Made by a program: the position numbers and the translations under genes. Below the pieces are notes generated by a model. It was not told the origin of the DNA. It did no database searches and saw only the letters and a program-made list of their open reading frames with translations. From positions 1 through 28,378 of the IMG/VR virus record IMGVR_UViG_3300030090_007143: a stretch of 28,378 nucleotides of DNA; one strand, written 5' to 3'. This document shows positions 1,762 to 22,740 of the stretch, piece after piece; the stretch's first letter is position 1; each line of letters begins with the position of its first letter. The stretch comes from a virus.

Positions 1762-1908
1762 TTAAAAGAGTGGTTTTTCTGTTGCGCGATCGATTCTTTT
1801 TGTAATTTTATCTTCGATGACGCTCTTTAAATATTTATGTGCCTGGGCATAATTTTTCTTAGAAATATGCTCAATGACCTTAATAATCTTTAATTTTTCT
1901 TTGCCCAT
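1762..1908 (-). CDS. Small prohead core protein (gp67/gp68-like), 48 aa
   Basis: A short gene read directly from the minus strand: ATG at 1908, TAA at 1762-1764. The product begins MGKEKLKIIKVIEHISKKNY and ends KRIDRATEKPLF; it is basic and helical. In T4-like phages the slot between the protease gp21 and scaffold gp22 (or just before gp21) holds small core proteins gp67 and gp68. The pattern 'helix, then KNYxxAxxYLKxxIEDKI' resembles those proteins, but the exact match is uncertain. An AATAAATA late box lies 5 nt before the ATG and overlaps the gp21 stop codon; the downstream gap to gp22 is 2 nt. Position and promoter argue for a real gene. Confidence 0.7.
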   Translation of the reverse strand: MGKEKLKIIKVIEHISKKNYAQAHKYLKSVIEDKITKRIDRATEKPLF

Positions 1909-1913
1909 AATAT

Positions 1914-1921
1914 TATTTATT
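1914..1921 (-). promoter_or_regulatory. T4-like late promoter box for the core protein gene
   Basis: AATAAATA on the minus strand, ending 5 nt before the ATG at 1908 and overlapping the gp21 stop codon. It resembles the T4 late -10 consensus TATAAATA. Confidence 0.6.
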
Positions 1922-2590: not shown

Positions 2591-2597
2591 TATTTAG
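2591..2597 (-). promoter_or_regulatory. T4-like late promoter box for gp21
   Basis: CTAAATA on the minus strand, 5 nt upstream of the gp21 ATG and directly after the gp4 stop codon. CTAAATA is the commonest variant in this window. Confidence 0.6.
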
Positions 2598-3038
2598 TCA
2601 CCCCTTACGATAAAGCTCCTTTTCTGTAATAATTATGAAGGTAAAACCGGACTTTTTACAATATTCTCGAGCTGCTTTCCATTTTGCTTGATTTGTTATA
2701 AACATTTTTTGCTCGTATATCAAATGCTGTTTCTTTCTATACTTTGTTTGAGGTGGTTTTGTTTGTTTTGAAGGTTTTATTTCAACAAGGTAGTTAATTA
2801 CCTCATTACCTTCCTTTATAGAAACAAAATTATCTACATAATATTTGTGAACTCTATTGTCTAGAGGGTTTTTATAAGGAACAACAACGTTTTCACTGCC
2901 CCATTTTAAAACATTTGGATTTGTATCGCAAAATCTAAAGAACTTTAATTCTAATCCTGATCTATATACTGCTTTTGTACCAATAAATTTTTCAGAATTA
3001 GTTGGAGTAAAGACACCTTGCCGCCACTTCTTCCTCAT
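2598..3038 (-). CDS. 4: Head completion protein gp4 (nuclease-like)
   Basis: T4 gp4 (also called gp50/65) is needed to finish DNA-filled heads before tail joining, and its fold is nuclease-like. The 146-aa product equals the T4 length (about 150 aa). Family hallmarks are a basic N-terminus; AVYRSGLELKFFRFCDTNPN (residues about 24-43); WGSENVVVPY; a Y-x-D-x-F block (KYYVDNFV); LVEIKPSKQT (E/K nuclease-like pair, residues about 84-93); FITNQAKWKAA; and a C-terminal FIIITEKEL. The Asp...Glu-x-Lys arrangement resembles the PD-(D/E)XK/TnsA-like active site. The start overlaps the stop of the upstream structural gene as ATGA, suggesting translational coupling. Confidence 0.88.
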   Translation of the reverse strand: MRKKWRQGVFTPTNSEKFIGTKAVYRSGLELKFFRFCDTNPNVLKWGSENVVVPYKNPLDNRVHKYYVDNFVSIKEGNEVINYLVEIKPSKQTKPPQTKYRKKQHLIYEQKMFITNQAKWKAAREYCKKSGFTFIIITEKELYRKG

Positions 3039-4318
3039 CCTACAAAGAACATTGGTGGTTCCGTATCGCCTAGTCCAGGAGATGCGCCTTCTAATAGTTT
3101 ATTCTCAAGTTCGGCTTTTTTATCTAACCCTTCTTGAAGCATATCGTAGTTTAATGCACCACCACCTAATAATTGTACATTGCCAAACTTACCTCTTACA
3201 CGTCCAATAGTTATCATACTAAGTGCTAGAGCATATTCGTATACCCATTGCTCCATAATAACATCTCTAATAGGTTTTTCGAGATAACATCCAAGAACTC
3301 CATAGAATCTATCATTACCAGGTTGTGGGTACATTTGCATATATTGCGTCCTAGGATCGAATTTTATATCTCTTCGAATTGCTAATAGTTTTTCTCTTGT
3401 ATCAATCCACTCTTTTAGTGTATACCAAGATACTAAGTCAAATCCATAGTTACCTAAAGCATAACTAAAGTATGTTTGTTGTGCGAGTGTTTGTTCTAAA
3501 GTAAACAACGTATTAATACCTGTAGTTGAACCTTCTTCGAAGTCGATAACATCAACAACTTTTCTATATTCCATTACATCATAATCAAATGCATTTTGAT
3601 AATATAGAGCTTTAGTTTCTTTACCTTCAAGAGTTATTGTTTGTTCAGGTGAAGCTTTAAAAAATGCACTAAGACCAGGTTTAAATGAAGTTATGTCCTG
3701 ATAAAGTGAAGTTCCAAACACTTGAAATGGTTCTATACCAGCACCAAGTGCTGATGGTTTTTCATAAGTACCTGCTGTTACAGAGGCGAAAAGTGATGAT
3801 AGCGAATTAATCCCCCCACCGTGTGGCGTACCAACAAACTCTGTCGCACTTAAGGATGACATTGCTACGTACACAGAAGGTAAGTTTGTTTGTGGATTAC
3901 CACCACCAGGCAGCCCGGATAATGCACCTGCAGCCCCACTTAGTAAGTTTGGCGGTTGCGATCCGTAAAATTCTGGACCTGGTCCTAAAGGGTTTTTACC
4001 GCCTATTTGTTTTACTTTTGTATCAAGATCAGTATTTGCTAGTGTATAGAGAAAGTCTAATCTAATACCTTTATTGTATTCATACATATTAGAATCAAAT
4101 ATTAAATATTCTCTCGTATAACCAGCGTACTTTGTAAAGTATTCAACTGCTATCTGAACGTTTTGTCTAAGTTGATCAGTATGTATCTCTAAGCTTATTA
4201 AGGGATATCCAAGGGATCTTTTTATTCTGTCGCCAAGTTGATCGTATGTTTTAATCTTGCTATTTAAATTTGTTGATAAAAATGCAGAAAGCGGTTTAAT
4301 ATTACATGCAAGTGCCAT
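3035..4318 (-). CDS. Virion structural protein of marine T4-like phages (location in particle unknown)
   Basis: 427-aa protein. The N-terminal block (residues about 34-80, LGYPLISLEIHTDQLRQNVQ followed by AVEYFTKYAGY) is a motif shared by several neck/head-tail structural proteins of marine T4-like phages. The C-terminal half (KFDPRTQYMQMYPQP, GCYLEKPIRDVIMEQWV, GRVRGKFGNVQLLGGGALNY, ending PPMFFVG) matches a structural protein I recognise from such genomes. The middle (residues about 105-200) is Gly/Pro/Ser-rich and probably a variable loop. It is placed between portal gp20 and gp4, so a role at the head-neck region is likely but not proven. An AATAAATA late box ends 5 nt before the ATG. Its stop overlaps the gp4 start. 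Confidence 0.75.
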   Translation of the reverse strand: MALACNIKPLSAFLSTNLNSKIKTYDQLGDRIKRSLGYPLISLEIHTDQLRQNVQIAVEYFTKYAGYTREYLIFDSNMYEYNKGIRLDFLYTLANTDLDTKVKQIGGKNPLGPGPEFYGSQPPNLLSGAAGALSGLPGGGNPQTNLPSVYVAMSSLSATEFVGTPHGGGINSLSSLFASVTAGTYEKPSALGAGIEPFQVFGTSLYQDITSFKPGLSAFFKASPEQTITLEGKETKALYYQNAFDYDVMEYRKVVDVIDFEEGSTTGINTLFTLEQTLAQQTYFSYALGNYGFDLVSWYTLKEWIDTREKLLAIRRDIKFDPRTQYMQMYPQPGNDRFYGVLGCYLEKPIRDVIMEQWVYEYALALSMITIGRVRGKFGNVQLLGGGALNYDMLQEGLDKKAELENKLLEGASPGLGDTEPPMFFVG

Positions 4319-4323
4319 AAAAT

Positions 4324-4331
4324 TATTTATT
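4324..4331 (-). promoter_or_regulatory. T4-like late promoter box, minus arm of a divergent pair
   Basis: AATAAATA on the minus strand, 5 nt before the ATG at 4318. It lies 4 nt from the plus-strand late box, making a compact divergent late promoter. Confidence 0.6.
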
Positions 4332-4335
4332 CAGG

Positions 4336-4343
4336 CATAAATA
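4336..4343 (+). promoter_or_regulatory. T4-like late promoter box, plus arm of a divergent pair
   Basis: CATAAATA on the plus strand, ending 5 nt before the ATG at 4349. It matches the T4 late consensus at seven of eight positions and is the only plus-strand late box within the virion module. Confidence 0.65.
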
Positions 4344-4348
4344 AATAT

Positions 4349-4729
4349 ATGGCGACACCAACATCAAATTCCGGAAGTGAATATTTTAATATAAATCAGT
4401 GTAGATCGTATGGGATGAGACTAGCCGGAAGCTCAGCTCTAACATGCTTATCAAGTACAGATACCGGAGGACACGGAGCGGGCATGCCCTGTTCTGAAGT
4501 TATTATACAAAATAGAACTGGCGGCGATGTAACTATTTTTACTACTAACTTCGGACCATTTGCTTCTGGATCACCACAAGGAGCTGGTGGTTCACGTGGA
4601 TTTGTATTAGAAGATAATGATCAATTTACTTTTAGAGGCTTAACAAATGTTAATGAAGTTTCCGCAGCGGCGAAGTCCGCCGGTATGATTTACTACAGGA
4701 CTCAGTTCTTTAGTTTTAATCCACGTTAA
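4349..4729 (+). CDS. Small putative virion accessory protein, inserted against the head operon
   Basis: I do not recognise the family. The 126-aa product is Gly/Ser/Thr/Asn-rich with no Lys-rich region, signal peptide or membrane segment. Its middle and end (SEVIIQNRTGGDVTIFTTNF, then FVLEDNDQFTFRGLTNVNEV) read like a compact beta-sandwich, similar in feel to small decoration or adhesion proteins. It is the only plus-strand gene between minus-strand head genes. It has its own late box (CATAAATA) and shares its TAA stop with the gp20 stop on the other strand through a TTAA overlap. Late expression and position suggest a virion component; an alternative is an accessory (moron-like) gene unrelated to the particle. 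Confidence 0.75.
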   Translation: MATPTSNSGSEYFNINQCRSYGMRLAGSSALTCLSSTDTGGHGAGMPCSEVIIQNRTGGDVTIFTTNFGPFASGSPQGAGGSRGFVLEDNDQFTFRGLTNVNEVSAAAKSAGMIYYRTQFFSFNPR

Positions 4730-6543
4730 ACTTCAGCAGGCTCTTCTACTTCAACTTCAGTTTCTGCGACTTCCTCTGTATCGGCCTCACCAGTGTCTGC
4801 TGGTCCGCCGCCAAACTCTGGTATACCACCTCCGCCACCTCCACCAACACCTGCCCCTTCACCGCCTACAGCAGCTTCACCTTCAGCTAATTCACCCGCT
4901 AATGCTTGTTCTTTCCATGCTGGTCCAGCAGCAGTAATTTGAGCTAACTCCCACTGAAGCTCAGCATCTTTTCTTAAAAATTCCCTGTTAGCTAATATAT
5001 CCTTATCCTTCCATCCAAGATATTTTTTCTGTGCATATGTAGCAGATACAAATTCATTACCAGCTAAGTTAGTATAATTTCCTGATTTAAGCTCAAGTCT
5101 TTGATTTTCTCTAAGCTCATAAAAATTAGTAGGTACATTAAACTCAATCTCTAAATTTTGTTCATTGAGTTCTAATTTTTCAAAAATACCCATTAGCGTA
5201 AGATGAGTAATAAATCCTTTCTTAAGACCAGCTGCAAACCTTTGCTGTTGCCTTATTACAAAACGAGCAAACTTAAGTTCTTCTCTCAATATTGATGTAC
5301 CAGAAGCTTCAACCTGATCTTGTGGATCTAATCTCGCTGTTGGTACTTTGAGAGCTCTATAAAGCTTTTTAATGAAATACATTAAATCAGATAACTCACC
5401 TAAGTTTTGTCCTCCTGCTAGCTGTCTAACATCTGTACCCTCTGAACCTTGTCTCTTAGCAAACCAAAATGCATCAAGCATAGATTGAGGATTAAACTTC
5501 TTAACAACATCTTCTTGGTCTATATCAAATGTTTTTCTCGACCAATACTGTTGAATTAATTTTTTGAGATATGCCTCAGCTTTAGGTGGTGGCATATTAC
5601 CAACATCAACATTAAAAACTAATCTTTCTGGCGCTCTAACTAAACGATAAATAACAATTGCATCTTCAATTAGTGATAACTGTCTATAAGGACGTCTTGC
5701 ATTTTCTAAGAAAGGTATAATAAAGTTTTTAGTTTCATTATATACACCAGAATTAACATACATAATCTGGTTTTGATCCATTGGTATAAATTCAACCTTT
5801 TCTACCTTTTGAGGTTGTGATGGACTAAAGATCGGCTTTCTATATATATAACCTTTAACAAGCATGTTTTGTATGTTGTTATACACCGGATCTATAATCT
5901 CAGCTGGTAAATTAATAACACCGAGTACACCATCTTTTACGTAACCTTCGTGAATTATTTGTTCAAAGAAAACCTCTCCCTCAACCATCATCTGTCGAAA
6001 GTATTGCCAACCTTTATTTTTAAGATCGTAATACTCAACATATCTATGAAATTGTTTTTCTATTTCAGCCTTTTCGTCTATTGTTAAATCAATGTCTTTA
6101 TAATGTAAGCTTGTAATCCATCCTGTTTCATCCGGATTAATCATTTCATCACAAATTTCATCTAACGCATCTGATATTTCAGAATAAGCTGCCATTATCC
6201 TATAATCACGAAGTCTTCCAGCTTTATCATCTTGTATGTTAGCATACATGACATCACCAAAAGATGAATCTTTAGCAAAATCACCAATAGGTATATTATT
6301 ATATGGATTGGAAGAGGAAACAGAAGCTTTAGCTAATGCTTCAGCTCTACGCATTCCAGCTTTCTGAAAGAATTTATATTTTGGGTTTAATGCATCATTT
6401 TCACCGCGACCATCATCTGTAGCATACGGTAGTCTATTTTGGATGTACTGTATTAAACTTCTTCCAAAAGTTGATGCACGACCGTCATTAGTCACATAAG
6501 AGCGATTTTGGTCTGAGCTTGTTGATGATCCGGATCCAGGCAT
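4726..6543 (-). CDS. 20: Portal vertex protein gp20
   Basis: Dodecameric portal of the head, through which DNA is packaged and ejected and to which the neck attaches. The 605-aa product is longer than T4 gp20 (524 aa). Strong family blocks include YSEISDALDEICDEMIN, the segment EDAIVIYRLVRAPERLVFN continuing into VDVGNMPPPKAEAYL (residues about 293-328), RQLAGGQNLGELSDLMYF, and VPTARLDPQDQ followed by an ILREELKFARFVIRQQQ-type helix. The last roughly 60 residues are an unusual low-complexity tail, first poly-Gly and then strongly acidic (Glu/Asp/Val/Thr), which accounts for the extra length. A CATAAATA late box ends 7 nt before the ATG. The stop overlaps that of the convergent small gene at TTAA. 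Confidence 0.97.
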   Translation of the reverse strand: MPGSGSSTSSDQNRSYVTNDGRASTFGRSLIQYIQNRLPYATDDGRGENDALNPKYKFFQKAGMRRAEALAKASVSSSNPYNNIPIGDFAKDSSFGDVMYANIQDDKAGRLRDYRIMAAYSEISDALDEICDEMINPDETGWITSLHYKDIDLTIDEKAEIEKQFHRYVEYYDLKNKGWQYFRQMMVEGEVFFEQIIHEGYVKDGVLGVINLPAEIIDPVYNNIQNMLVKGYIYRKPIFSPSQPQKVEKVEFIPMDQNQIMYVNSGVYNETKNFIIPFLENARRPYRQLSLIEDAIVIYRLVRAPERLVFNVDVGNMPPPKAEAYLKKLIQQYWSRKTFDIDQEDVVKKFNPQSMLDAFWFAKRQGSEGTDVRQLAGGQNLGELSDLMYFIKKLYRALKVPTARLDPQDQVEASGTSILREELKFARFVIRQQQRFAAGLKKGFITHLTLMGIFEKLELNEQNLEIEFNVPTNFYELRENQRLELKSGNYTNLAGNEFVSATYAQKKYLGWKDKDILANREFLRKDAELQWELAQITAAGPAWKEQALAGELAEGEAAVGGEGAGVGGGGGGGIPEFGGGPADTGEADTEEVAETEVEVEEPAEV

Positions 6544-6550
6544 TTATATA

Positions 6551-6558
6551 TATTTATG
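6551..6558 (-). promoter_or_regulatory. T4-like late promoter box for gp20
   Basis: CATAAATA on the minus strand, 7 nt before the gp20 ATG and overlapping the stop codon of the upstream gene. Confidence 0.55.
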
Positions 6559-7806: not shown

Positions 7807-7814
7807 TATTTATT
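7807..7814 (-). promoter_or_regulatory. T4-like late promoter box for the gp15-like gene
   Basis: AATAAATA on the minus strand, overlapping the helicase stop codon. The distance to the ATG is 11 nt, the longest in this set. Confidence 0.5.
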
Positions 7815-9801: not shown

Positions 9802-10175
9802 GAATTCATAAAATTAAATTTTTGCGACGATGACATAGGATATATATTTTCATTAAAATATACCCAAAAGTCATCGTTAGCAGGTATTTGCTGTATTAAA
9901 TCGCATTCCAAGGTATTTATATTTCTATAATCTTGCATTATTATATCCCACGCAACAGCTAATCTATCTGGTCCTAGATAGGCTTTAGGTGGGCCTTTTG
10001 GTGGAAAATAATTCAATGAAATTCTACCATTAACTGAATTGAGCAAAGATAGTGATTTCGTACAAAGCATTCTTCTCGTAGGAGCTTGACCAGGTTTAAT
10101 TATTCTACGAGCAAATCTTATTTCACAAACATTGTCTAATAAAAGAGCGTCAAGAGCTGCTTTCTGTATTATCAT
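9798..10175 (-). CDS. Small conserved phage protein, possible WYL_2/DUF2693-like domain
   Basis: 125-aa protein. It has an initial strand block (VCEIRFARRI), RRMLCTKSLSLL (residues about 34-45), then LAVAWDIIMQDYRNINTLEC (about 72-91). This order, basic strand, 'R-x-M-x-C-T' block, then 'V-x-W-D-x...(Y/F)R-x-I', resembles the small SH3-like WYL_2 (DUF2693) proteins common in marine T4-like phages, whose role is unknown. The match is by eye and tentative. The gene starts inside the last 26 nt of the co-chaperonin gene in another frame and overlaps the next gene by 4 nt, so all are co-translated. Confidence 0.6.
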   Translation of the reverse strand: MIIQKAALDALLLDNVCEIRFARRIIKPGQAPTRRMLCTKSLSLLNSVNGRISLNYFPPKGPPKAYLGPDRLAVAWDIIMQDYRNINTLECDLIQQIPANDDFWVYFNENIYPMSSSQKFNFMNS

Positions 10176-10581
10176 CTTTTTCTTTACAGATACCGAACAT
10201 TCTTTCTTCGTTCAAAAAGATGCCCTTTTCTACCGTCCCTTTACCTGGAACTGAGACGCCAGAAATAGTAACACCCATATTATTTGGAAAGAGAACAATA
10301 TCACCTTCCTTAGCATATTTGGCATCTGGTCCTGATAAAATAACTCTGCCTTTTCGCCATGCCATAGTAATTTGATTTGTTGGAATTAAGATACCGTTTC
10401 GTTCAATTGCTTCTTGTCCTTCTGGTACCATCTCTGATAAATCTACATATTCAATTAATAAAATATCGTCAAAGAGAAATGTTAAATCGTAGTCAGTTAA
10501 ACCAAAATCACCTTTATCTGGAGCTGATAAATCAATCAAGCTTTTTGTTGGTGCTAAATTATCTATTGATGCTAATGCCAT
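10150..10581 (-). CDS. GroES-like co-chaperonin (functional analogue of T4 gp31)
   Basis: Predicted to cap host GroEL and help fold phage proteins, above all gp23, as gp31 does in T4. The fold order is visible: FLFDDILLIEYVD (first strand, cf. DRVLVK in GroES), GILIPTNQITMAWRKGRVIL, SGPDAKYAKEGDIVLFPNNM (cf. VGDIVLF of GroES), and FLNEERMFGIC (cf. LxEEDILAI). At 143 aa it is longer than GroES (97) or gp31 (111), with extra residues at both ends. I chose the ATG at 10581 (MALASIDN) because a TTAAATA late box ends exactly 5 nt upstream; the in-frame TTG at 10596 would lie upstream of that box. Late-type expression would suit a capsid-folding role. Confidence 0.8.
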   Translation of the reverse strand: MALASIDNLAPTKSLIDLSAPDKGDFGLTDYDLTFLFDDILLIEYVDLSEMVPEGQEAIERNGILIPTNQITMAWRKGRVILSGPDAKYAKEGDIVLFPNNMGVTISGVSVPGKGTVEKGIFLNEERMFGICKEKDDNTESSS

Positions 10582-10586
10582 AAAAC

Positions 10587-10593
10587 TATTTAA
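10587..10593 (-). promoter_or_regulatory. T4-like late promoter box for the co-chaperonin
   Basis: TTAAATA on the minus strand, 5 nt before the ATG at 10581. It decides the start of the co-chaperonin gene. Confidence 0.5.
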
Positions 10594-10617: not shown

Positions 10618-11442
10618 TCAGACCGGTTTATAATGAACGTTTTGCTCTTTTTCTCTTTCGTCGAGTTCGTAATTTTTTCTATACTCGTTATTAACCTTAA
10701 TAGTTTCATTTAGAATAGAAAAACATTGTGCAAAAGAATTAAATGCAGCAGTGTCTTTAGGAAAACACGCTCCACCGTAACCGCGTTTATTATCAAATCC
10801 TGGAACAGTAGTATGTGAGTGTGTAATACGTGGATCAGATCCTACAGCACTTATAATTGCATTATAGTTAGCATTATGATTTTTTGCTATATCATATAAC
10901 TGATTAAAAAAAGTTACTTTCGTAGCTAAAAAAGTATTAATGCTATATTTTACAAATGCAGCTTCAGTAGCTGACATATGAAAAACAGGACAAGGTCGAC
11001 ATATACTATATTCGTTATATATATCTAACAGTTCTTCTGTGTAATGCCCTGTACCACCTAATACAAGCATAAATTGATTTACAAAATCTTCATTAGCATT
11101 CTTCTCAGTTAAGAATTCTGGATTATAAACAAAGTCTTTAAATTTATCTGATAACCTACCTGCAATATCCGGTGTTACTGTTGACTTGAGAACAATTAAT
11201 GCATTAGTGTATTCACTTACTTCAGCACAACATTGCTCTACTATTGATGCATCAATACTACCATCATTACTCATAGGGGTAGGCGCGCATATAAAGACAA
11301 CATCTGGGTTAAAAGATAGTAAATCCTCACATGTAGTATTATAGTTTGGGTCAATTAATTTCTTTTTAACATTATTTGAAAACCCATAATCAACTGCTTT
11401 ACCTACAAAGCCATGACCTACAATACCTACTTTAAGCTTCAT
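10618..11442 (-). CDS. UDP-glucose/GDP-mannose 6-dehydrogenase, short form
   Basis: NAD-dependent oxidation of UDP-glucose to UDP-glucuronate (or GDP-mannose to its uronate). VGIVGHGFVGKAV (residues 5-17) is the Rossmann NAD site. VLKSTVTPDIAG and VYNPEFLTEKNANEDF (105-120) are the conserved linker and substrate segments. YSINTFLATKVTFFNQL (166-182) is the dimer helix, and GYGGACFPKDTAAF (221-234) holds the catalytic Cys226. The product stops at 274 aa, whereas cellular enzymes are about 390-450 aa, so the C-terminal UDP-sugar-binding domain is absent. I see no remnant of it downstream, so this is not a recent frameshift; short forms occur in other T4-like phages. It overlaps the epimerase gene by 11 nt. 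It is likely the UDP-GlcA source for the cluster's exostosin-like enzyme, if active. Confidence 0.88.
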   Translation of the reverse strand: MKLKVGIVGHGFVGKAVDYGFSNNVKKKLIDPNYNTTCEDLLSFNPDVVFICAPTPMSNDGSIDASIVEQCCAEVSEYTNALIVLKSTVTPDIAGRLSDKFKDFVYNPEFLTEKNANEDFVNQFMLVLGGTGHYTEELLDIYNEYSICRPCPVFHMSATEAAFVKYSINTFLATKVTFFNQLYDIAKNHNANYNAIISAVGSDPRITHSHTTVPGFDNKRGYGGACFPKDTAAFNSFAQCFSILNETIKVNNEYRKNYELDEREKEQNVHYKPV

Positions 11443-12343
11443 AAGACTTAATCCAATGTTCTAATTTAACACTTGGTTCATAACCAAGAAGCTCCCTACT
11501 CTTTGTTAAATCAGCTAGCGTTTCTCTAGCTTCACCAGGTCTATCAGGAATAAACTCAGTCTCACCACCAATAATATTTGCTACATCTAATACACTATGA
11601 TTTACACCAGTACCTACATTAAATATTTCCCCTACAATATCTGGATTTTCGCTTTCTGCTGCTAATATATTAGCTTTAACAATATCACCAACATACGTAA
11701 AATCTCTTCGCTGTTCACCATCTCCAACAACTGTCATTGGCATTTCGGCGTTTTTTTGTTTTTGAAAAATACCAATAAGAGGTGCATACTGACCTTTTAG
11801 GGGTTGGCGCTCTCCGTATACATTAAAGTATCTAAATATAACTGTCTCAAGGTCAAACAGATTATAATACATTTTACATAGCTCTTCTGCTGCAGCTTTT
11901 GATACAGAATAAGGGTTTAAACAGTCCCTAGGCATGTCTTCTTTTAATGGACATACATTTGCAAGACCGTAAACAGATGATGTAGATGAGAACATAAATC
12001 TCTTTACACCATGCTCTCTACTTTGCTGTAACATGTTACATGTACCGACTACATTAACATCACAAGACTCAATAGGATTTTTAATTGCAACTGGAATTCG
12101 TGAATGCGCTGCTAAATGAAAAACATAATCAGGTTTAAACCTAGAAAAAACTTTACTGCATTCTCTTTGATCTGTTATATTGATAAGATGTTTTTCTGCT
12201 TTATTATTCCAATAAAATTCTTCATTTACGGTTGAACTTTCATTATCAATTATTGCTACCTCATAACCGTCAGCAATAAGTTGATCAACTAAATTCGACC
12301 CGATAAATCCGGCCCCGCCTGTTACTAGTGCTTTTTTACTCAT
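11432..12343 (-). CDS. NAD-dependent UDP-hexose(NAc) 4-epimerase, GalE/WbpP-like
   Basis: Extended short-chain dehydrogenase/reductase that interconverts C4 epimers of a UDP sugar (Glc/Gal or GlcNAc/GalNAc). GGAGFIGSNLV (residues 9-19) binds NAD. FSSTSSVYG (118-126) and YSVSK (Tyr145, Lys149) are the catalytic blocks. FRYFNVYGERQ and GDGEQRRDFTYVGDIV are the usual substrate-domain signatures. At 303 aa it is a normal length. Which UDP sugar it uses cannot be read from the sequence. Its ATG overlaps the stop of the GDP-mannose epimerase gene by 4 nt (ATGA), and its end overlaps the dehydrogenase gene by 11 nt, so the three sugar-nucleotide genes are a translationally coupled set. Confidence 0.85.
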   Translation of the reverse strand: MSKKALVTGGAGFIGSNLVDQLIADGYEVAIIDNESSTVNEEFYWNNKAEKHLINITDQRECSKVFSRFKPDYVFHLAAHSRIPVAIKNPIESCDVNVVGTCNMLQQSREHGVKRFMFSSTSSVYGLANVCPLKEDMPRDCLNPYSVSKAAAEELCKMYYNLFDLETVIFRYFNVYGERQPLKGQYAPLIGIFQKQKNAEMPMTVVGDGEQRRDFTYVGDIVKANILAAESENPDIVGEIFNVGTGVNHSVLDVANIIGGETEFIPDRPGEARETLADLTKSRELLGYEPSVKLEHWIKSYEA

Positions 12344-13350
12344 TTTAATTTAATTTGTTTTTTAATCCATTTATACGTTTTTGCCATTCCTTCTTCTAAA
12401 GTCGCTGTTGATTCCCAACCTATTTTTTCTCTGTAAAGCTTATTATCAGAATTTCTACCCCTTACACCTAAAGGGCATTTAAATCCATACTTATCAATAA
12501 ATTCTTGACCGTCAATATTTTTAATTTTAATATCTTTTTCTGAGAGATTAATCGCGATTTGAGCTAACTCGTTAATAGTTACCATCTCTTCTGATCCAAT
12601 ATTTACAGGTCCAAGAAATTTATCTTGTCTCATTAGTCTTAATGTAGCCTCAACACACTCTTCAACATATAAAAAGGATCTTGTTTGTGATCCGTCGCCC
12701 CATACCTCTATTTCAGTTGCTCCTTCTACAGCTTTTCGACACATAGCTGCCGGTGCTTTTTCCTTACCTCCGTCATATGTACCCTGAGGGCCGAAAATAT
12801 TGTGATATCTTGCTACTCTAACATTAAGACCATAGTTTCGACTAAAAGCTAAAAATAATCTCTCACCAAAAAGCTTTTCCCATCCATATTCACTATCAGG
12901 GTTTGCAGGATAGGCTGAAGACTCTTCGCAATTAGGGTTATCAGGATCTAATTGATTATGCTCCGGGTACATACAAGCTGAAGAAGAATAAAATACCCTC
13001 TTAGCTCCATGTTTTGTTGCATAGTGTACTACGTTTAAATTAACTAAAGCAGAATTATGCATTACATTTGCATCATTATCACCGGTAAAAATATAACCAG
13101 CTCCTCCCATATCAGCTGCTAATTGATACACTTCATCAAAACCACCTTCTAACGTTAATACTTTATCTACCACATTAGGATCTGTTAGATCACCAGATAC
13201 ATATTCATCACAAATATCGTTATGATCCCAATATTCGTGCTTTTCTTTAATATCTGCAATACGAACCCAGAAACCTTCTGACTTTAATCTTTTTGCTAAA
13301 TGACCTCCAATAAAGCCACCGCCACCTAACACTAATGCAGTTTTACTCAT
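12340..13350 (-). CDS. GDP-mannose 3,5-epimerase-like
   Basis: Predicted to convert GDP-D-mannose to GDP-L-galactose (and GDP-L-gulose). Resemblance to the plant enzyme is strong: LAADMGGAGYI (residues 78-87), SSSACMYPE (122-130), a YGWEK Tyr155/Lys159 pair, RYHNIFGPQGTYDGGKEKAP (181-200), WGDGSQTRSFLYVEECVE, and VNIGSEEMVTINELA. The catalytic residues of the plant enzyme (Cys, Tyr, Lys, Lys) have counterparts at Cys126, Tyr155, Lys159 and Lys198. GGGGFIGGHLA (9-19) binds NAD. Length (336 aa) is near the family's. It overlaps gp62 by 8 nt and the next epimerase by 4 nt. A plainer NAD-dependent epimerase/dehydratase label is safe; the GDP-mannose specificity is well supported by eye but untested. 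Confidence 0.85.
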   Translation of the reverse strand: MSKTALVLGGGGFIGGHLAKRLKSEGFWVRIADIKEKHEYWDHNDICDEYVSGDLTDPNVVDKVLTLEGGFDEVYQLAADMGGAGYIFTGDNDANVMHNSALVNLNVVHYATKHGAKRVFYSSSACMYPEHNQLDPDNPNCEESSAYPANPDSEYGWEKLFGERLFLAFSRNYGLNVRVARYHNIFGPQGTYDGGKEKAPAAMCRKAVEGATEIEVWGDGSQTRSFLYVEECVEATLRLMRQDKFLGPVNIGSEEMVTINELAQIAINLSEKDIKIKNIDGQEFIDKYGFKCPLGVRGRNSDNKLYREKIGWESTATLEEGMAKTYKWIKKQIKLK

Positions 13351-13705
13351 AATTTTTTATATAACTTTTTAATTCACGTACTGAAATATTTTTATTTTTA
13401 GCAAGCAAATTTAAATTTTCTTCCTCTTCTTTATCCTTTTTAACCTTTTTGATATAGGATATTCTCTTAAATTTAAGTCGTGGAATCAAATAGTAATATA
13501 ATTTATAAGCGTCTTGTTTATTTTCAAATATAGTACTAAATTTATTCAATGTCTCATTTGTAAAGACCGACATATCATTATTATAGAAAGAAAGCCAACG
13601 ATTAAACAAGAAGGGTACAAATGCTTGCTCACCTTCTGCGTCTAAATCTTGCGCTTTATCTTTCTTAGAGTAAAATAATTTATTTTGCAGTTGAAAAAAA
13701 TTCAT
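13343..13705 (-). CDS. 62: Sliding-clamp loader small subunit gp62-like
   Basis: With gp44, T4 gp62 loads the gp45 sliding clamp for replication and late transcription. At 120 aa this is shorter than T4 gp62 (187 aa) but like the compact form in marine T4-like phages: a hydrophobic N-terminal helix, FVPFLFNRWLSFYNNDMSVF (residues about 29-48), LNKFSTIFENKQDAYKLYYYLIPRLKF (split here by helix breaks), a basic/acidic linker (KKVKKDKEEEEN) and a final LLAKNKNISVRELKSYI helix. The identification is by pattern. Unusually, gp44, gp45 and the polymerase are not next to it. It sits inside the sugar cluster, overlapping an epimerase gene and the DUF366 gene. Confidence 0.75.
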   Translation of the reverse strand: MNFFQLQNKLFYSKKDKAQDLDAEGEQAFVPFLFNRWLSFYNNDMSVFTNETLNKFSTIFENKQDAYKLYYYLIPRLKFKRISYIKKVKKDKEEEENLNLLAKNKNISVRELKSYIKNYE

Positions 13706-14283
13706 ACAATTACTTTTGTAGTAGCAACAAACTCATCAGCAACCTCATTATTAAAGTAATCGATTACAGCAGTCATAAACTCTTCAACATTTTTCTCAGA
13801 TAAATTAGAAGAGTAAGCAAACGCAGGAGCTTTGTCACCAGCTACAATATTGATACCGGTATGACCTACAGCTACACTATCTTTCGAGTAAGTAATCGAA
13901 ACACTTACTTTGCCAGACTGTCGAACTTGCTTATCAACACCTACAAACTCATCTTGAACTAACAAATCATCACCATCTACCACTATAGGCTTTTGAATAA
14001 TATTAGATAAAATATTAGCAATTGCAGTATTAAACAGTCTTTGAAATGAAACTGCACCAAATGGACACAAATTAGGAATTTCCCAGCAAAAATTTATAGC
14101 GTCTTGACTGTGAATATAGTCATTACTTAATGTATCTTCTAGATCGATGAGTTCCTCTTTAACATACATAGGAGCTCTAAATGCAACAATATTACCATAT
14201 GGTGATACCTGCTTACGAAAATATTTGTAAGCAAATCTCTCGTGAATTAATTTTCCATCGTATACGCCTTCTTTAATAATCAT
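13702..14283 (-). CDS. DUF366 family protein
   Basis: 193-aa protein of the DUF366 family, known mainly from archaea and thought to have a biotin/lipoate-ligase-like fold; its function is not established. Recognisable blocks are MIIKEGVYDGKLIHERFAY at the N-terminus, GNIVAFRAPMYVKEELIDLE (residues about 30-49), QDAINFCWEIPNLCPFGAVS, FQRLFNTAIANIL, VSVSITYSKDSVAVGHTGIN, and FVATTKVIV at the end. The match is strong throughout. The gene overlaps gp62 by 4 nt. A sigma70-like promoter and a 20-bp palindrome cover its start, making it the likely first gene of a sub-operon running through gp62 and the epimerases. Its role in a phage is unknown; nucleotide or base-derivative metabolism would be a guess. 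Confidence 0.85.
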   Translation of the reverse strand: MIIKEGVYDGKLIHERFAYKYFRKQVSPYGNIVAFRAPMYVKEELIDLEDTLSNDYIHSQDAINFCWEIPNLCPFGAVSFQRLFNTAIANILSNIIQKPIVVDGDDLLVQDEFVGVDKQVRQSGKVSVSITYSKDSVAVGHTGINIVAGDKAPAFAYSSNLSEKNVEEFMTAVIDYFNNEVADEFVATTKVIV

Positions 14284-14295
14284 TATAATGATTAT
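14276..14295. repeat. Perfect 20-bp palindrome across the DUF366 start codon
   Basis: Each 10-base arm is ATAATCATTA or its complement, with no central spacer. It spans the ATG (14281-14283) and most of the putative -10 box (14291-14296). Possible roles are a repressor/operator site or an mRNA structure around the start codon. AT-richness makes chance palindromes more likely, but 20 bp without a mismatch is notable. Confidence 0.6.
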
Positions 14296-14318
14296 ATGAT
14301 ATATTGATTATTATTCAA
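14291..14318 (-). promoter_or_regulatory. Putative sigma70-like promoter for DUF366-gp62-epimerase genes
   Basis: On the minus strand, TTGAAT (14313-14318) is separated by 16 nt from TATAAT (14291-14296). The -10 box ends 7 nt before the ATG at 14283, so the transcript would be almost leaderless. It lies in the 36-nt gap after the upstream glycosyltransferase gene. Judged by eye against the E. coli consensus. Confidence 0.45.
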
Positions 14319-14319
14319 C

Positions 14320-15123
14320 TTAAACATGCTTCCACCTGTTTATTAGGTTGATATAATTACCTGAGTCTATCATCTGATCGTTCCATAATTGACCACTTAC
14401 AAAATGTCTTAAAATAACATCTTTTGGATTTGATAGTTTATTAATATTATAATCACAATTACTTTCACCGGGCCATTCTGTAACATTATATCTTGTATCT
14501 TTAATCTCTACATGTTTATATAATTCTTGTGTTGTATACTGTGGATCTTGTTGACTATCACTATTCCAACCAAAGTCTTTAATTTTAAAATATGGTATAT
14601 CGCTATGCATTGTTACACCAGCAAGAGAATACCAACTTGCTTGCTCACTAAACATATCCCAAAACGAGGTCCCGGAATTAGGATGTATAATATGTCTAAG
14701 CTTTTTATGTCTTTCATCCGAAACCATATTTTTAATTAACTGTTTAGACCATTCATTTATTTTTATACTATGCCAACCCATACAGTGCGTGTTACCTGAA
14801 TCGATAGAATACGAAAAAGATTTTGTTGTAGCAAAATCATAGTCTAAATTAACCATAAACATGTCTGCGTCTAGAGTTAATATTAAATCACCATCATTAA
14901 TATTATTATTATCTAACCAATCATCATACATGAGGAAGTTTGTCCAACTTGGATTTTCTCTTCTTTGTTGTATTTTTGTTTTGATCTGTTCTCTATCATT
15001 TATCTCTATATATTCGTAATTATGCTTTAAGGCATATTCTTTATTTCTAGGAGAAATATATTTGTCAAAAATGTTTTGAATCTTTTCAGGGTATACTGCT
15101 ACAACTAGTAATATCTTTCTCAT
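14320..15123 (-). CDS. Glycosyltransferase, GT-A fold (GT34/galactosyltransferase-like)
   Basis: Nucleotide-sugar transferase, 267 aa with the start used here. MRKILLVVAVYPE opens a Rossmann-type strand, and DGDLILTLDADMFM (residues 77-90) carries the metal-binding DxD motif (Asp85/Asp87). Other features are a region with several Trp (NPSWTNF, MYDDWLD, CMGWHSI), and HFVSGQLWNDQM near the C-terminus. The family cannot be fixed by eye; GMA12/MNN10-like (GT34) is one option. I chose the ATG at 15123, 5 nt after the FkbM stop, rather than an in-frame ATG at 15162 inside the FkbM gene, because the extra residues (MGRCSVYKRKITG) are not domain-like. It is the last transferase gene of the run, before the 36-nt gap with the promoter. 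Confidence 0.75.
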   Translation of the reverse strand: MRKILLVVAVYPEKIQNIFDKYISPRNKEYALKHNYEYIEINDREQIKTKIQQRRENPSWTNFLMYDDWLDNNNINDGDLILTLDADMFMVNLDYDFATTKSFSYSIDSGNTHCMGWHSIKINEWSKQLIKNMVSDERHKKLRHIIHPNSGTSFWDMFSEQASWYSLAGVTMHSDIPYFKIKDFGWNSDSQQDPQYTTQELYKHVEIKDTRYNVTEWPGESNCDYNINKLSNPKDVILRHFVSGQLWNDQMIDSGNYINLINRWKHV

Positions 15124-15128
15124 ACCTG

Positions 15129-15776
15129 TTATTTTTCTCTTATATACAGAGCATCTCCCCACACAGGCTGTTCACTATTGGAGTGCCAAAATGGATCAGC
15201 CCAACTTTCTTCTACTCTCTTTAAATTATATTTTGAAAGAAAATAATCTATATCCTCAATTAGCGCACAATTTTTATATAATTCATCTTTATTAACTTCT
15301 GTCATTACGTAGTCAACATTTTTAAGTGTTTTTGATGCGCCGAGTAAAACATTTAATTCACCTCCTTGTACATCCATATTAATAAAGTTAAACTTAGATG
15401 ACGTCTGATATTTATCGAGTGGATGAACTTTAACTTTTATCTTTTCATTAAAAACAGTTTCCGGATATATATGAGTATGTATATGCGGTTCAAGCAAAGA
15501 ATTAGATTGTCCTTTATTGGCAGTCTCCCTATAAAAATCAGCTTCACAGGAGAACGGGCCTAAAGCTTTATTAACACAAATAGCTCTTTTATCGTGACTA
15601 ACTCTAGATTTTAACTTTTTAAAATGATCTGGATCTGGTTCAAAAAAAACCATATGTTCTATAGTATCAATCTTTTGATACTCATCATATTCGGTACCGA
15701 CGTGACCACCAACATGAATAACACCTGTTATATTCATGTTATATTTTTTAATAGCACTATGTAAGTCAATCAACAT
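15129..15776 (-). CDS. FkbM-family methyltransferase
   Basis: S-adenosylmethionine-dependent O-methyltransferase of the FkbM type, usually methylating a sugar hydroxyl of a glycan. Typical blocks are GVIHVGGHVGTEYDEYQ (residues about 18-34, SAM-binding glycine loop), VFFEPDPDHF (about 43-52), FNFINMDVQGGELNVLLGA (about 129-147), VMTEVNKDELY and WGDALYIREK at the end. At 215 aa it is of normal length. A 25-nt gap separates it from the upstream transferase, and the next gene begins 5 nt after it. The setting among glycosyltransferases suggests methyl capping of the phage-made glycan. Confidence 0.88.
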   Translation of the reverse strand: MLIDLHSAIKKYNMNITGVIHVGGHVGTEYDEYQKIDTIEHMVFFEPDPDHFKKLKSRVSHDKRAICVNKALGPFSCEADFYRETANKGQSNSLLEPHIHTHIYPETVFNEKIKVKVHPLDKYQTSSKFNFINMDVQGGELNVLLGASKTLKNVDYVMTEVNKDELYKNCALIEDIDYFLSKYNLKRVEESWADPFWHSNSEQPVWGDALYIREK

Positions 15777-15801
15777 ATAGCTTACTTAAGTATAAATAAT
15801 T

Positions 15802-17415
15802 TTAATTCCAGGTTTGAGCCCAGAGATGTACACAAAATGTTTCTGGTTTAATATAGTCTCGCGGATTATCACCTCGGATTCGATGTCTCGGAAAACAAGG
15901 ATATGGATAAAAATAAGAATTAGGAAAAACAACAGTATTATTATCTATATTTTCTAACACCTTTCGTGTTGTATGATACGGTCCTGTTGAATCAATAATC
16001 GCCATTCCATCATGCCACTTCATTTCTTTATCATAAGTTTGCATAGCTGTTATTGCCTTACTCTTAGGTTTAGATCCTATTATACTATTTGACATCGACG
16101 GCCAATCATCATAACAAATACCGCAAAAGAAGTCTAAATCTAGTAACTCATCAAACAATTTTACAATCATAAAATCTGTGTCTAGATAAACACCACCATA
16201 TTCATATAAAATTACGTTTCTTAATATATCAGCTTTTTGACCAAAGTTTGGAGTTCGATCAAAAAGATCTTTATTTTTAAATTTACCTAAACTTTCAATA
16301 TCATTATTTCCCCACAGCTTATACTCCCATCCATTATCATCACATTTCTTTTTTACTAACTGGCATGCTTCTTTTTCCTGTTTTGCCATCTCACCTCCTA
16401 ACCATATCTGGTGTATAGTTTTCGGTATAACGTCTTTCCCTTTTGGTGATGTAATATAATTGTTGTAAACTTTTTTAATTGTATCCCAATCTTCTATGTT
16501 AGTTGGTTTCGTTAAATAGTCTACTGAAAGGCTCATACAACTATCAAACGACGGAGTAGCGCTTGCTTGAAGTATTCTAAGTATTTGTTTACACATCCCT
16601 TCAAGTGTAAAATACTTTTCATAGATTTTTTTACCACTTGCGAGCATTTGTTCTTGTTGCTTATCTGTAATTTGACTTAACTTATTCTTCAAATTTGGTA
16701 TTTCTGTCTCATGAACTAACACACAAAAAGATTCATAATCAATTACATCTTCAAAAGGAAACCATTTCTTATCATATACAACAACTGGTATTGAATTAAG
16801 TTGCATTATTTCATAAAACCTAAAACTTTGTGCGCCGTAACCTCTTGGACAAAGAGAAAACTTAGATCTATTAGTTACATCTATAAAAAAATTAAGTTGC
16901 TCTTCTGGTACAGCCTCTGTCCAATGCTTCATATACAATTGAAAGTCATTATCATTTGCGTAAGTATCTCTAATAGTATCACGTATAGGGTGCGATGCCG
17001 AACCAACGAAGGAACAAAAAATATCTTTTTCTTTTTTGTCTGGTACTGAGGGTATTTTAGAGCATATAAGAGGTAGAGGTATACCGTTTCCATTACCACC
17101 TCCTTCAAATGATAATGTTCCTGCTGGTAACTGTTCTTCAACTGCATCATCATGCTGTGATACAGAAAAATACTTACCGTCTGGTAAAGCATTTAAAAAT
17201 GGTTGTATTAATCTACGTTTATTAGCTCCCTTATGCTCCATAATGTAAACATTAGTCCAAAAAATAGGTATAAGTGTAAATCCTGTCTTATCAAATTCTT
17301 TTTTATTCTTAAGATAATACTTATAAAAGTATTCTTCCATATAGTATCCTTCGTGATAGGGCGGGTACGTTGGATGATCGTATGGTATTCTTAACTCTTT
17401 AAAGTCTACAATCAT
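15802..17415 (-). CDS. Two-domain glycosyltransferase: exostosin/GT47-like N-terminus fused to GT32-like C-terminus
   Basis: 537-aa fusion. The N-terminal half (residues about 40-280) is exostosin-like: DIFCSFVGSASHPIRDTI (131-148), SKFSLCPRGYGAQSFRFYEI (184-203), IPVVVYDKKWFPFEDVIDY, and a MLASGKKIYEKYFT helix. After a linker (about 285-325) the C-terminal part is a GT32/OCH1-type domain: VIPKTIHQIWLGGEM (329-343), FGQKADILRNVILYEYGG (391-408), and the DxD motif LDTDFMI (411-417), ending HLWAQTWN. Exostosins usually transfer GlcA or GlcNAc, and GT32 enzymes mannose or galactose, so one chain could add two sugars in turn. It overlaps the GT11-like gene by 4 nt. Fusion of these two families in a phage is unusual. 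The N-terminal assignment is less certain than the C-terminal one. Confidence 0.85.
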   Translation of the reverse strand: MIVDFKELRIPYDHPTYPPYHEGYYMEEYFYKYYLKNKKEFDKTGFTLIPIFWTNVYIMEHKGANKRRLIQPFLNALPDGKYFSVSQHDDAVEEQLPAGTLSFEGGGNGNGIPLPLICSKIPSVPDKKEKDIFCSFVGSASHPIRDTIRDTYANDNDFQLYMKHWTEAVPEEQLNFFIDVTNRSKFSLCPRGYGAQSFRFYEIMQLNSIPVVVYDKKWFPFEDVIDYESFCVLVHETEIPNLKNKLSQITDKQQEQMLASGKKIYEKYFTLEGMCKQILRILQASATPSFDSCMSLSVDYLTKPTNIEDWDTIKKVYNNYITSPKGKDVIPKTIHQIWLGGEMAKQEKEACQLVKKKCDDNGWEYKLWGNNDIESLGKFKNKDLFDRTPNFGQKADILRNVILYEYGGVYLDTDFMIVKLFDELLDLDFFCGICYDDWPSMSNSIIGSKPKSKAITAMQTYDKEMKWHDGMAIIDSTGPYHTTRKVLENIDNNTVVFPNSYFYPYPCFPRHRIRGDNPRDYIKPETFCVHLWAQTWN

Positions 17416-18194
17416 GATTTGTTAATGTATTTACTCGAAGAGCCGTTAATATCAAAATATAAATCAATATCATCGTGTTTTGGATCTAATGGCCATGATT
17501 GTGTATCAAGTGTAAGACTATATGGAAAAATAATTTTTTTATGTGTACCTAAAAATGCTGGCCACCATGCAAAAGAAGATTGTGATATAGCCAGATTTTC
17601 ACTATATAGTAATGTCTTCATGTCATCCATTGCACTTCTATCTCCATTAATATTAAAATCTGGTCCTTGTGAGGATGTTTCAAGCTCACAACCATATTCT
17701 AATAAATTTGCTACAGTTTCACATTTTGGATCATCTGTAACAATTTTAACTTTTGAAAATCCGGAAGAATCTATAAGACCTTTATAAAAGTCTAAACCTA
17801 AAAACTGCTTTAGTTGATGATAATCACCACCTCTTACATGTAATACTAATGAGTCTTTGTTAATAGTATCTAAATCTCTAATTCCAAATATCTTTCTTAA
17901 TGTATCGCGATTATTAATATAGTATTTTGACTGCTGTACAAAAGAGTCGAGAATTATATCACCGTCAAAATCCTTAATTGCATCAAAATCAAAATGCTGA
18001 TCGCCTAGAGATCTCGCCTTTAAAACATTAGTTTGTAATCCATCAACTGGCTTGGGTTCAATTCCAAAATTTGGTAAACCTTCTCTATAGAATAACTCAC
18101 AGTTAAATTTTTCAGCTAGCAAATATGCAAATGCATATTGAAACATTCTATTACCTAAACGACCCCATGGATCATATTCTATTATTACTCTCAT
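17412..18194 (-). CDS. Alpha-1,2-fucosyltransferase-like glycosyltransferase (GT11)
   Basis: 260-aa GT-B fold enzyme. GRLGNRMFQYAFAYLLA (residues 11-27) is the GT11 opening motif; LVLHVRGGDYHQL (117-129) is the HxRxGDY donor-site motif; KIVTDDPKCE and SQSSFAWWPAFLG (204-216) are the third and fourth blocks. GT11 enzymes transfer L-fucose from GDP-L-fucose. No GDP-fucose genes are seen here, but the neighbouring GDP-mannose 3,5-epimerase would give GDP-L-galactose, which differs only by a C6 hydroxyl, so that may be the real donor (inference). It has no signal or membrane segment. Its stop overlaps the fusion enzyme's start by 4 nt, and the upstream gene ends 1 nt before its start. Confidence 0.85.
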   Translation of the reverse strand: MRVIIEYDPWGRLGNRMFQYAFAYLLAEKFNCELFYREGLPNFGIEPKPVDGLQTNVLKARSLGDQHFDFDAIKDFDGDIILDSFVQQSKYYINNRDTLRKIFGIRDLDTINKDSLVLHVRGGDYHQLKQFLGLDFYKGLIDSSGFSKVKIVTDDPKCETVANLLEYGCELETSSQGPDFNINGDRSAMDDMKTLLYSENLAISQSSFAWWPAFLGTHKKIIFPYSLTLDTQSWPLDPKHDDIDLYFDINGSSSKYINKS

Positions 18195-18195
18195 A

Positions 18196-19023
18196 TTACC
18201 AATAACAAGCTTGTTCTACAACATCTATACGATCTGGTGTTTCATTATCCAGGGGTCGTGTCCAGTGTTCATTAAAAAACGGTTGAAACTCCTCCATTTT
18301 ATCCCATCTATTACCTTTTATGCCAAATAAAATTTGTGTTGCACCGCCTAAGTGTATTCCTGTCTTGCCAATCTTTTTACACTCTAATGCTAGTAAAAGA
18401 CCTGTGTGACCTGTACCAAAAATACCCACATCGAAGTCTAAGCTCTTAACCTTATCTAACATTTCATCGTATATTTCACGTGAATTATTATACGGTGAAT
18501 CTTTTGTAATGGTTATTGCTGTTGGATATTGTATTGGTGTAAGATCAAAATTAGAGGTTATTTTATTGTTCCATATTTTATTAAGATTTTTAAAGTTGTT
18601 AGATATTGATGCCGCAAATGGTGAAAAAACAGCAACCTTTTTACCTTCTAAGTATGATGTCCATGGGTCATCGAAAAAATATGGCTCTAAATGCTGTAAT
18701 TTTGTAATGTTTACTTTACTACAATATTTTTCATATATATTTTTTTCAAATCCTGGAAGTACGTTTTCTCTCCAAACAGGAACTAAGTCTAAATATTTTA
18801 AATCCTCAAGTATAGTGTCTGTAAACCATGTGAAAGTATCATTATTAACAGGGTATAGACCCGCTACATCTTGCGTTTCTTTCAAAAATTGCTGACCCCA
18901 TGGATTAGACTTATTAAGAGTACACCATATAATTTGAAGCTCATTGCCCCCAAGTTTACCTGCTGTAAAAGGAATATTATTTTTTAAGTGGTGACTTATA
19001 AAGTTATTTCCATCAATTATCAT
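18196..19023 (-). CDS. GT-D-like putative glycan biosynthesis protein
   Basis: 275-aa protein of a poorly described family found in bacterial glycosylation clusters. FTAGKLGGNELQIIW (residues 19-33) resembles the 'RxGxxE' opening of GT-D fold transferases. KKVAVFSPFAASISNNF (about 128-144) and the GIFGTGHTGLLLAL block, followed by IHLGGATQILFGIKGNRWD (about 222-241), are the family's most conserved parts. The activity has not been read from sequence; a sugar transferase or donor-handling role fits the position between two transferase genes. It overlaps the upstream gene by 11 nt and is followed after 1 nt by the GT11-like gene. Confidence 0.7.
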   Translation of the reverse strand: MIIDGNNFISHHLKNNIPFTAGKLGGNELQIIWCTLNKSNPWGQQFLKETQDVAGLYPVNNDTFTWFTDTILEDLKYLDLVPVWRENVLPGFEKNIYEKYCSKVNITKLQHLEPYFFDDPWTSYLEGKKVAVFSPFAASISNNFKNLNKIWNNKITSNFDLTPIQYPTAITITKDSPYNNSREIYDEMLDKVKSLDFDVGIFGTGHTGLLLALECKKIGKTGIHLGGATQILFGIKGNRWDKMEEFQPFFNEHWTRPLDNETPDRIDVVEQACYW

Positions 19024-22733: not shown

Positions 22734-22740
22734 CTAAATA
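22734..22740 (+). promoter_or_regulatory. T4-like late promoter box for phoH
   Basis: CTAAATA on the plus strand, 6 nt before the phoH ATG, within the 51-nt divergent gap between queE and phoH. Confidence 0.55.

Follow-up and report, generated by a model that had tools for sequence, protein, structure and literature searches.

The locus between gp13 and gp20

The stretch of DNA analysed here (the window, 28,378 nucleotides) is a 28.4-kb piece of an uncultured T4-like myovirus that carries gp20, gp13, a gp4-like gene, the S77 protease gene and gp15 on the minus strand. A small gene encoding a protein of 126 aa is located on the plus strand at 4349..4729. Beside it lie gp20 and gp13, followed by the genes for the gp4-like head closure protein and the S77 prohead protease. 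The portal protein gene gp20 (4726..6543, minus strand) matched Pfam Portal_T4 (3.8e-99), and its product is about 28-32% identical to phage records among the matches listed. The neck protein gene gp13 (head-tail adaptor Ad2; 3035..4318, minus strand) matched PHROG 211 (2.3e-15); when the phage records were searched with tblastn, the neck protein gp13 of the Synechococcus phage S-CRM01 was the sole match, with 29% identity at 40% coverage. As the original prediction had noted, the small gene ends on the gp20 stop codon, and the two convergent stop codons have the TTAA at 4726..4729 (both strands) in common. This shared stop leaves no room for an intrinsic terminator; between 2500 and 6600 of the window, 3 such terminators were found compared to 2.4 in shuffled sequences. 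Past the structural genes, the minus strand from 10618 to 21169 holds a long run of genes that, from their sequence, are presumably epimerase-like and glycosyltransferase-like. A host search, in which genome contigs were scanned with the gp20 alignment, returned 135 stretches of which none was confirmed, and the tRNAs gave no usable hint to the host.

The ATG of gp13 ends at 4318 and that of the small gene begins at 4349. The 30 nt between them (4319..4348, both strands) form a predicted bidirectional late promoter that leaves neither gene space for a leader. The late box of the small gene is CATAAATA (4336..4343, plus strand, with TAAATA at 4338-4343), and that of gp13 is AATAAATA (4324..4331, minus strand, with TAAATA at 4324-4329). 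The two 8-mers face outward, are 4 nt apart and are each exactly 5 nt away from their own ATG, in agreement with what had been read from the sequence before. If +1 is the A of the respective ATG (4349 or 4318), each box spans -13 to -6, with an A at -12 on both sides and an A or C at -13. The TAAATA core of the T4-type late promoter TATAAATA is present in both directions. TAAATA occurs 46 times on both strands of the window, or 8.1e-4 per position, and by arithmetic from this frequency two boxes, one per side and each at a set distance, would arise by chance with a probability of about 7e-7.

The arrangement was then compared in 74 distinct gp13-gp20 slots, where identical slots were counted once and loci without gp13 or gp20 were omitted, as was L024, whose gp13 start is not ATG. 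In 73 of them each box stood 5-6 nt before its own ATG, and the sole exception, L035, has no slot gene. The gp13 box was exactly 5 nt from its ATG in all 74 slots and in 54 of 56 distinct gp13 upstream regions. The ATG-to-ATG gap measured 29-31 nt in 60 slots, 49 nt in 2 and 67-69 nt in 11. The spacing of both boxes was kept even where the slot gene had strongly diverged or was replaced by another gene of 53 aa. In 10 relatives the 30-nt promoter was 93-100% identical, compared to 81-92% for the first 300 nt of gp13 and down to 19% for segments of the small gene.

The small gene, its slot and its product

Relatives of the 126-aa protein were found 11 times by a single-sequence scan and 45 times by an alignment scan, and the dN/dS of the small gene against five relatives was about 0.11-0.20. 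A spurious open reading frame is ruled out by this conservation and by the dN/dS. The family was then followed at 80 gp13 loci, the best 80 of 242 gp13 relatives, a sample that is based on gp13 and hence independent of the small gene. At 67 loci the slot held a member of the family and at 13 the unrelated 53-aa gene, and none was empty.

The original prediction had described the small gene as inserted into the head operon and had proposed presence or absence in close relatives as a check. A recently added, moron-like decoration gene would fit its own promoter, its opposite strand, the single-gene unit and its end exactly at gp20, and extra genes do enter the slot in some relatives. Against this, no close relative was found with intact flanks and an empty slot among the best 80 loci, and the family is also present in distant T4-like relatives. 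We regard a recent addition as very improbable. The filled slots point to an old slot with some exchange of cargo and, as far as sequence comparison tells, the small gene is conserved and fast-changing, not a recent addition. In L046, gp13 is 93% identical but the family protein 57%, whereas in L057 gp13 is 79% identical and the family protein 83%; this discordance in the identity values suggests an exchange of the small gene.

Several variants of the slot were observed. In L001 and L012 the family gene is followed on the plus strand by another gene, of 220-222 aa (L001:4384-5052), whose start overlaps the stop codon of the family gene, and L039 has a tandem copy of the family gene. The protein of the second gene of L001 had no Pfam or PHROG match. 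In L024 and L116 a gene of 705-710 aa on the minus strand, that of gp13 and gp20, is located between the family gene and gp20. The replacement gene (51-55 aa, with the motif I/LIQILETGPR) stands behind the same late box in L096, L103, L106, L113, L117, L121, L122 and others. In the more distant relatives L020, L035 and L041, the family gene occupies another place and precedes a long coiled-coil gene. The two are separated by one gene of 140 aa in L035, whose copy of the long coiled-coil gene has tail-fibre domains (PHROG, 1e-7). L035 also has a 563-aa gene (L035:1816-3507) between gp13 and the gp4-like gene, with repeated cysteine motifs reminiscent of a homing endonuclease. When the copy number was counted in 21 records, one match was obtained in 17 and none in 4, which include fragments and phages with the 53-aa gene. 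A paralogue array was rejected on these counts, though L039 has its tandem pair.

The 126-aa protein of the window had no match in Pfam or PHROG. None of 59 family members matched a Pfam family, the Ena pilin family DUF3992 included, and the weak PHROG matches, to 19032 for 3 of the 59 members (best E 0.0011) and to 26120 for one, were to entries without a function. A PDB sequence search gave only matches of E 0.03 or worse. With tblastn against 50,697 phage records, no match was obtained for the 126-aa protein and a single one of E 0.9 for a relative. AlphaFold2 predicted an all-beta protein for the window sequence (pLDDT 74.9, pTM 0.70) and likewise for a shorter relative (pLDDT 83.2, pTM 0.70). 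Structure alignment of the two models led to jelly rolls and cupin-type barrels, with PA5104 at Z 9.5; the Z values of 6-9.5 are for the most part below about 8, where a match may reflect a mere common arrangement. The receptor-binding domain of the PM2 spike P1 (2vve, Z 9.0) and the HFTV1 turret (8qpg, Z 6.1) resemble the models in their all-beta arrangement along most of the domain, as do the Bacillus Ena pilins (7a02, Ena1B, Z 8.4; 8pdz, Z 8.0; range for the Ena fold 6.8-8.4). However, identity to these four structures is only 7-14% with no HMM match, and the arrangement alone does not show function. The models suggest a single-domain jelly roll as a fold class, by which we do not claim kinship. 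On the beta-sandwich or Ig-like structure that the original prediction proposed to look for, the all-beta models, which resemble jelly rolls, give no firm verdict; no Ig-like protein is named among the 50 structural matches listed, which excludes nothing.

Most of the matches that Foldseek gave among viral models were small phage proteins without a characterisation (best E 1.4e-7). Among the structural neighbours were Erwinia S6 gp049 and the Pseudomonas tf proteins I2FLS9 and I2FLT0, which from their length should be tf_60 and tf_61, encoded near a tail spike gene. In the family alignment, conservation was lowest at residues 66-84 (mean top-residue fraction 0.22) and 34-49 were rich in indels, whereas most of 97-126 was strongly conserved. 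With the strands labelled consecutively from B to I, these variable parts would be the CD and EF loops at one end of the jelly roll. One conserved and one variable end would suit an exposed virion protein at the surface, neck or fibre.

From its neighbours and the modelled fold, the 126-aa product is probably a virion component. The original prediction had suggested a decoration protein; the gene proved real, and the small all-beta product predicted for it is compatible with a virion role. Capsid decoration is no better a fit than a role at the fibre, neck or tail, because the distant relatives carry the family gene upstream of the long coiled-coil gene. T4 also has small late genes close to those of the head or neck, among them hoc, soc and wac. 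The searches showed no sequence relation to such accessory virion genes, and in T4 wac is located just upstream of gene 13 on the same strand, whereas the small gene is on the strand opposite to gp13. The product might instead be a late non-virion protein, for example in lysis control, as an assembly chaperone or in host takeover, since no homologue with a known function was found in the databases searched. The neighbours gp13 and gp20, or the long coiled-coil or fibre gene in the distant relatives, argue against this, as does the modelled jelly roll, a fold in common with viral spike and capsid domains. We consider a non-virion role unlikely, though it deserves to be kept in mind.

Late boxes at the start codons of related phages

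The same box precedes other genes of the window. On the minus strand, it was found 7 nt from the ATG of gp20 (6551..6556), 11 nt from that of gp15 (7807..7812) and 5 nt from that of gp21 (2591..2596). It is also 5 nt (10587..10592, minus strand) from ATG 10581, the likely start of an ORF that we take to be GroES-like. On the plus strand, it is 6 nt (22735..22740) from the ATG of the gene at 22747-23478, presumably PhoH-like. In two minus-strand genes, 10150-10581 and 24203-25795, the late box suggests internal ATG starts at 10581 and 25795 and not the upstream TTG listed. A 48-aa ORF that is absent from the ORF list (1762-1908, minus strand), between the protease and scaffold genes, has a late box at 1914..1919 (minus strand), 5 nt from its ATG, and may encode a small prohead core protein.

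Among relatives, the box stood 5-6 nt before gp21 in 51 of 51 distinct upstream regions and before the family gene in 44 of 52, with starts called at the first ATG. For gp20 the distance was 6-11 nt (44/44) and for gp15 9-11 nt (28/28). No box was present within 45 nt of gp22 (49/49), gp23 (40/40) and gp4 (64/65).

Genome-wide counts were made with mechanical ORF calls from the first ATG at cut-offs of 60 or 90 aa, so that the counts differ between analyses. TAAATA was found 5-6 nt before the start of 137 genes in five clade records (35 in G001, 39 in G002, 24 in G003, 24 in G004 and 15 in G006). The cultured T4-like Pelagibacter phage HTVC008M had 10 such genes. In T4, KVP40, S-PM2, Cr30, phiM12, Atu_ph04 and the fragment AG-341-P01 there were none; their boxes are mostly 12-44 nt from the starts, and in T4 24 of 30 boxes lie within 44 nt. 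When the clade upstream regions were shuffled 200 times with dinucleotides preserved, a mean of 3.4 and a maximum of 9 genes were obtained, compared to 116 observed. At exactly 5 nt from the box, where the late boxes of the clade have a sharp mode, ATG was observed 43 times in G001 (5.4 expected) and 40 times in G002 (6.1 expected). TTG was not depleted at this distance (9 versus 5.8 expected in G002, 5 versus 3.2 in G006). The boxes at 5 nt in three clade records are preceded by G at -14 in 45-53% and A at -13 in 50-66%, with A at -12 in 52-73%, a preference that may be an extended late-box motif of the clade. Two of the records also contain a tmRNA (Rfam RF00023), at L134:4252-4661 in G002 (minus strand, 133.7 bits) and at L167:15777-16193 in G001 (minus strand, 132.5 bits).

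The genes with a box were then identified in G002 (171 kb). A profile scan covered 42 of 44 box proteins, two of more than 1400 aa being omitted, and 79 of the 111 non-box proteins, these 79 being chosen by hand; the families were tallied from 25 of 27 and 25 of 61, respectively. The boxed proteins were portal, sheath, tube, wedge/baseplate, protease, neck, endolysin and fibre proteins, with PhoH as an exception, whereas DNA polymerase, ribonucleotide reductase, clamp loader, helicases and UvsX led the non-box set. The box thus marks late and not replication genes, but the split is imperfect, as the late proteins gp23 and terminase large subunit (TerL) are without a box and PhoH has one. A gp55 gene was detected in 8 of the 9 clade records searched, and its match to the 181-position profile stops near position 140. 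One gp55 match (G007:C1:50279-50710) has two in-frame TAA codons, either an error or a broken gene. The view of the original prediction that the boxes are late promoters is supported by the gp55 genes and by the same box marking late genes in the 171-kb genome.

An alternative is that TAAATA next to the ATG serves as a translation-initiation element, an AU-rich site for the ribosome or S1 in a host without Shine-Dalgarno sequences, and that transcription starts elsewhere. The clade upstream regions are AT-rich and almost devoid of Shine-Dalgarno motifs, which precede 47 of 686 genes compared to 115 of 183 in T4; an SD-like 4-mer preceded only 5 of the 137 box genes, and none precedes the start codon at the window promoter. 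The gene arrangement fits both readings alike: overlap with the preceding gene is rare among boxed genes (4/177 compared to 243/564 for non-boxed genes), and divergence from it is more frequent (54/177 compared to 82/564). However, the element is limited to a subset of mainly late genes and equals the known late-promoter core. In HTVC008M, 79 of 156 genes have a Shine-Dalgarno motif but only 1 of the 10 box genes. In addition, 592 non-box genes of the clade showed a peak of TATAAT at 6 nt from the ATG, with 26 genes compared to 13, 18 and 11 at neighbouring positions and a background of 0.8 per position. At this distance TATAAT covers -12 to -7 and is shifted by a single base relative to the late box, which is what two promoter classes sharing the A of the ATG as +1 require. 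A translation signal is, on this evidence, a poor candidate.

PMC1524935 places the T4 late box at -13 to -6 and describes the T at -13 as poorly conserved in most T4-likes. With this register and 5 nt to the ATG, +1 coincides with the A of the start codon, and the late mRNA would be leaderless. The original prediction had noted the 5 nt but not this consequence; its late promoters and its gene are supported, its insertion is not. The boxes might also be late promoters at which the gp55 of the clade starts a few bases earlier, leaving leaders of 1-4 nt. Since the clade gp55 is divergent, the spacing from box to start could differ from T4 by a base or two, and the distances of 6-11 nt at gp20 and 9-11 nt at gp15 imply that some leaders would be 1-6 nt and not zero. 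Against such near-leaderless messages stand the sharp modes at 5 nt for the late box and at 6 nt for TATAAT, both of which agree with published spacings when transcription begins at the A of the ATG. We consider these short leaders unlikely as a general explanation.

We therefore favour, with fair though not full confidence, the reading that the 30 nt are back-to-back gp55-type late promoters, where each start codon is itself the predicted transcription start, the mRNAs are leaderless and the plus-strand product is a jelly-roll virion protein. Late in infection, the RNA polymerase of the host would be guided to one box or the other by the phage late sigma factor gp55. With the A of the ATG as the first transcribed base, leaderless mRNAs would be made of gp13 leftward and of the 126-aa gene rightward, and translation would begin at the 5'-terminal AUG without a Shine-Dalgarno sequence. 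Two polymerases would not fit on boxes this close together, and competition between the promoters is to be expected. The small jelly-roll protein would take its place on the virion surface or in the neck or fibre region, with the variable loops outward.

Comparison with known systems

The promoter resembles the T4 late promoter in the TAAATA core, the common A at -12 and the AT-rich stretch from -5 to -1, as well as in marking late virion genes and in the presence of a gp55 gene in the relatives of the window. It differs in that the T4 box is 12-30 nt before most boxed starts, which leaves room for a leader. Leaderless genes of Actinobacteria and Deinococcus-Thermus are similar in that the start codon follows the -10 element by about 6-7 bp and the SD is missing (PMC3160421, PMC12340547). 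A -10-to-ORF spacing of 6-7 bp was shown to give leaderless genes in Deinococcus (PMC12340547), and -10-like signals beside the ORF have served to predict leaderless genes across whole genomes (PMC3160421). Those are cellular promoters of the sigma70 type, whereas the clade phages would use a gp55-class late promoter beside a sigma70-type set.

A cultured counterpart is HTVC008M, where 14 ORFs are preceded by a box at 4-8 nt and 11 of these have it at exactly 5 nt. The annotations of nine boxed ORFs were tape measure, DNA end protector, head closure, baseplate wedge and tail completion protein, and for the remaining four 2OG-Fe(II) oxygenase, CsgF, adenylate/guanylyl cyclase and hypothetical protein. 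Between its DNA end protector and head closure genes there is a divergent gap of 26 nt (NC_020484, 18917-18942) with a box exactly 5 nt from each ATG, which matches the two-way arrangement of the window. In contrast to the clade, its other genes often have an SD sequence, and neither a peak of TATAAT near the ATG nor a member of the small-gene family was found in HTVC008M. Judged from its genome, HTVC008M shows the late-promoter part of the clade pattern.

T4 late promoters, leaderless genes and small jelly-roll phage proteins are each already known. What would be new is a phage late-promoter class fused to the start codons across a lineage, of which we found no description in the open-access literature searched, nor any report there of leaderless late genes in T4-like or marine phages. 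To our knowledge, T4 late transcription has always been described with leadered messages. More broadly, we lean slightly towards the view that an uncultured T4-like ocean lineage gave up leaders and Shine-Dalgarno sequences, that its sigma70-type and gp55 promoters became fused to the start codons and that its proteome, the virion included, is made largely from leaderless mRNAs. The slot between gp13 and gp20 would then be a site of swappable cargo behind a fixed two-way promoter with zero leader.

The family of the small gene would add an unnamed single-copy protein, modelled as a jelly roll, to the parts list of T4-like phages. Late-promoter prediction was unsuccessful in pelagimyophages, according to PMC7029224, and boxes fused to the start codon may bear on those failed searches. 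HTVC008M has a cultured host, which makes the leaderless reading testable. If true, it would show a phage adapting its own late sigma factor to leaderless translation, would predict an unusual translation apparatus in the host and would allow precise annotation of start codons and promoters in a large uncultured group.
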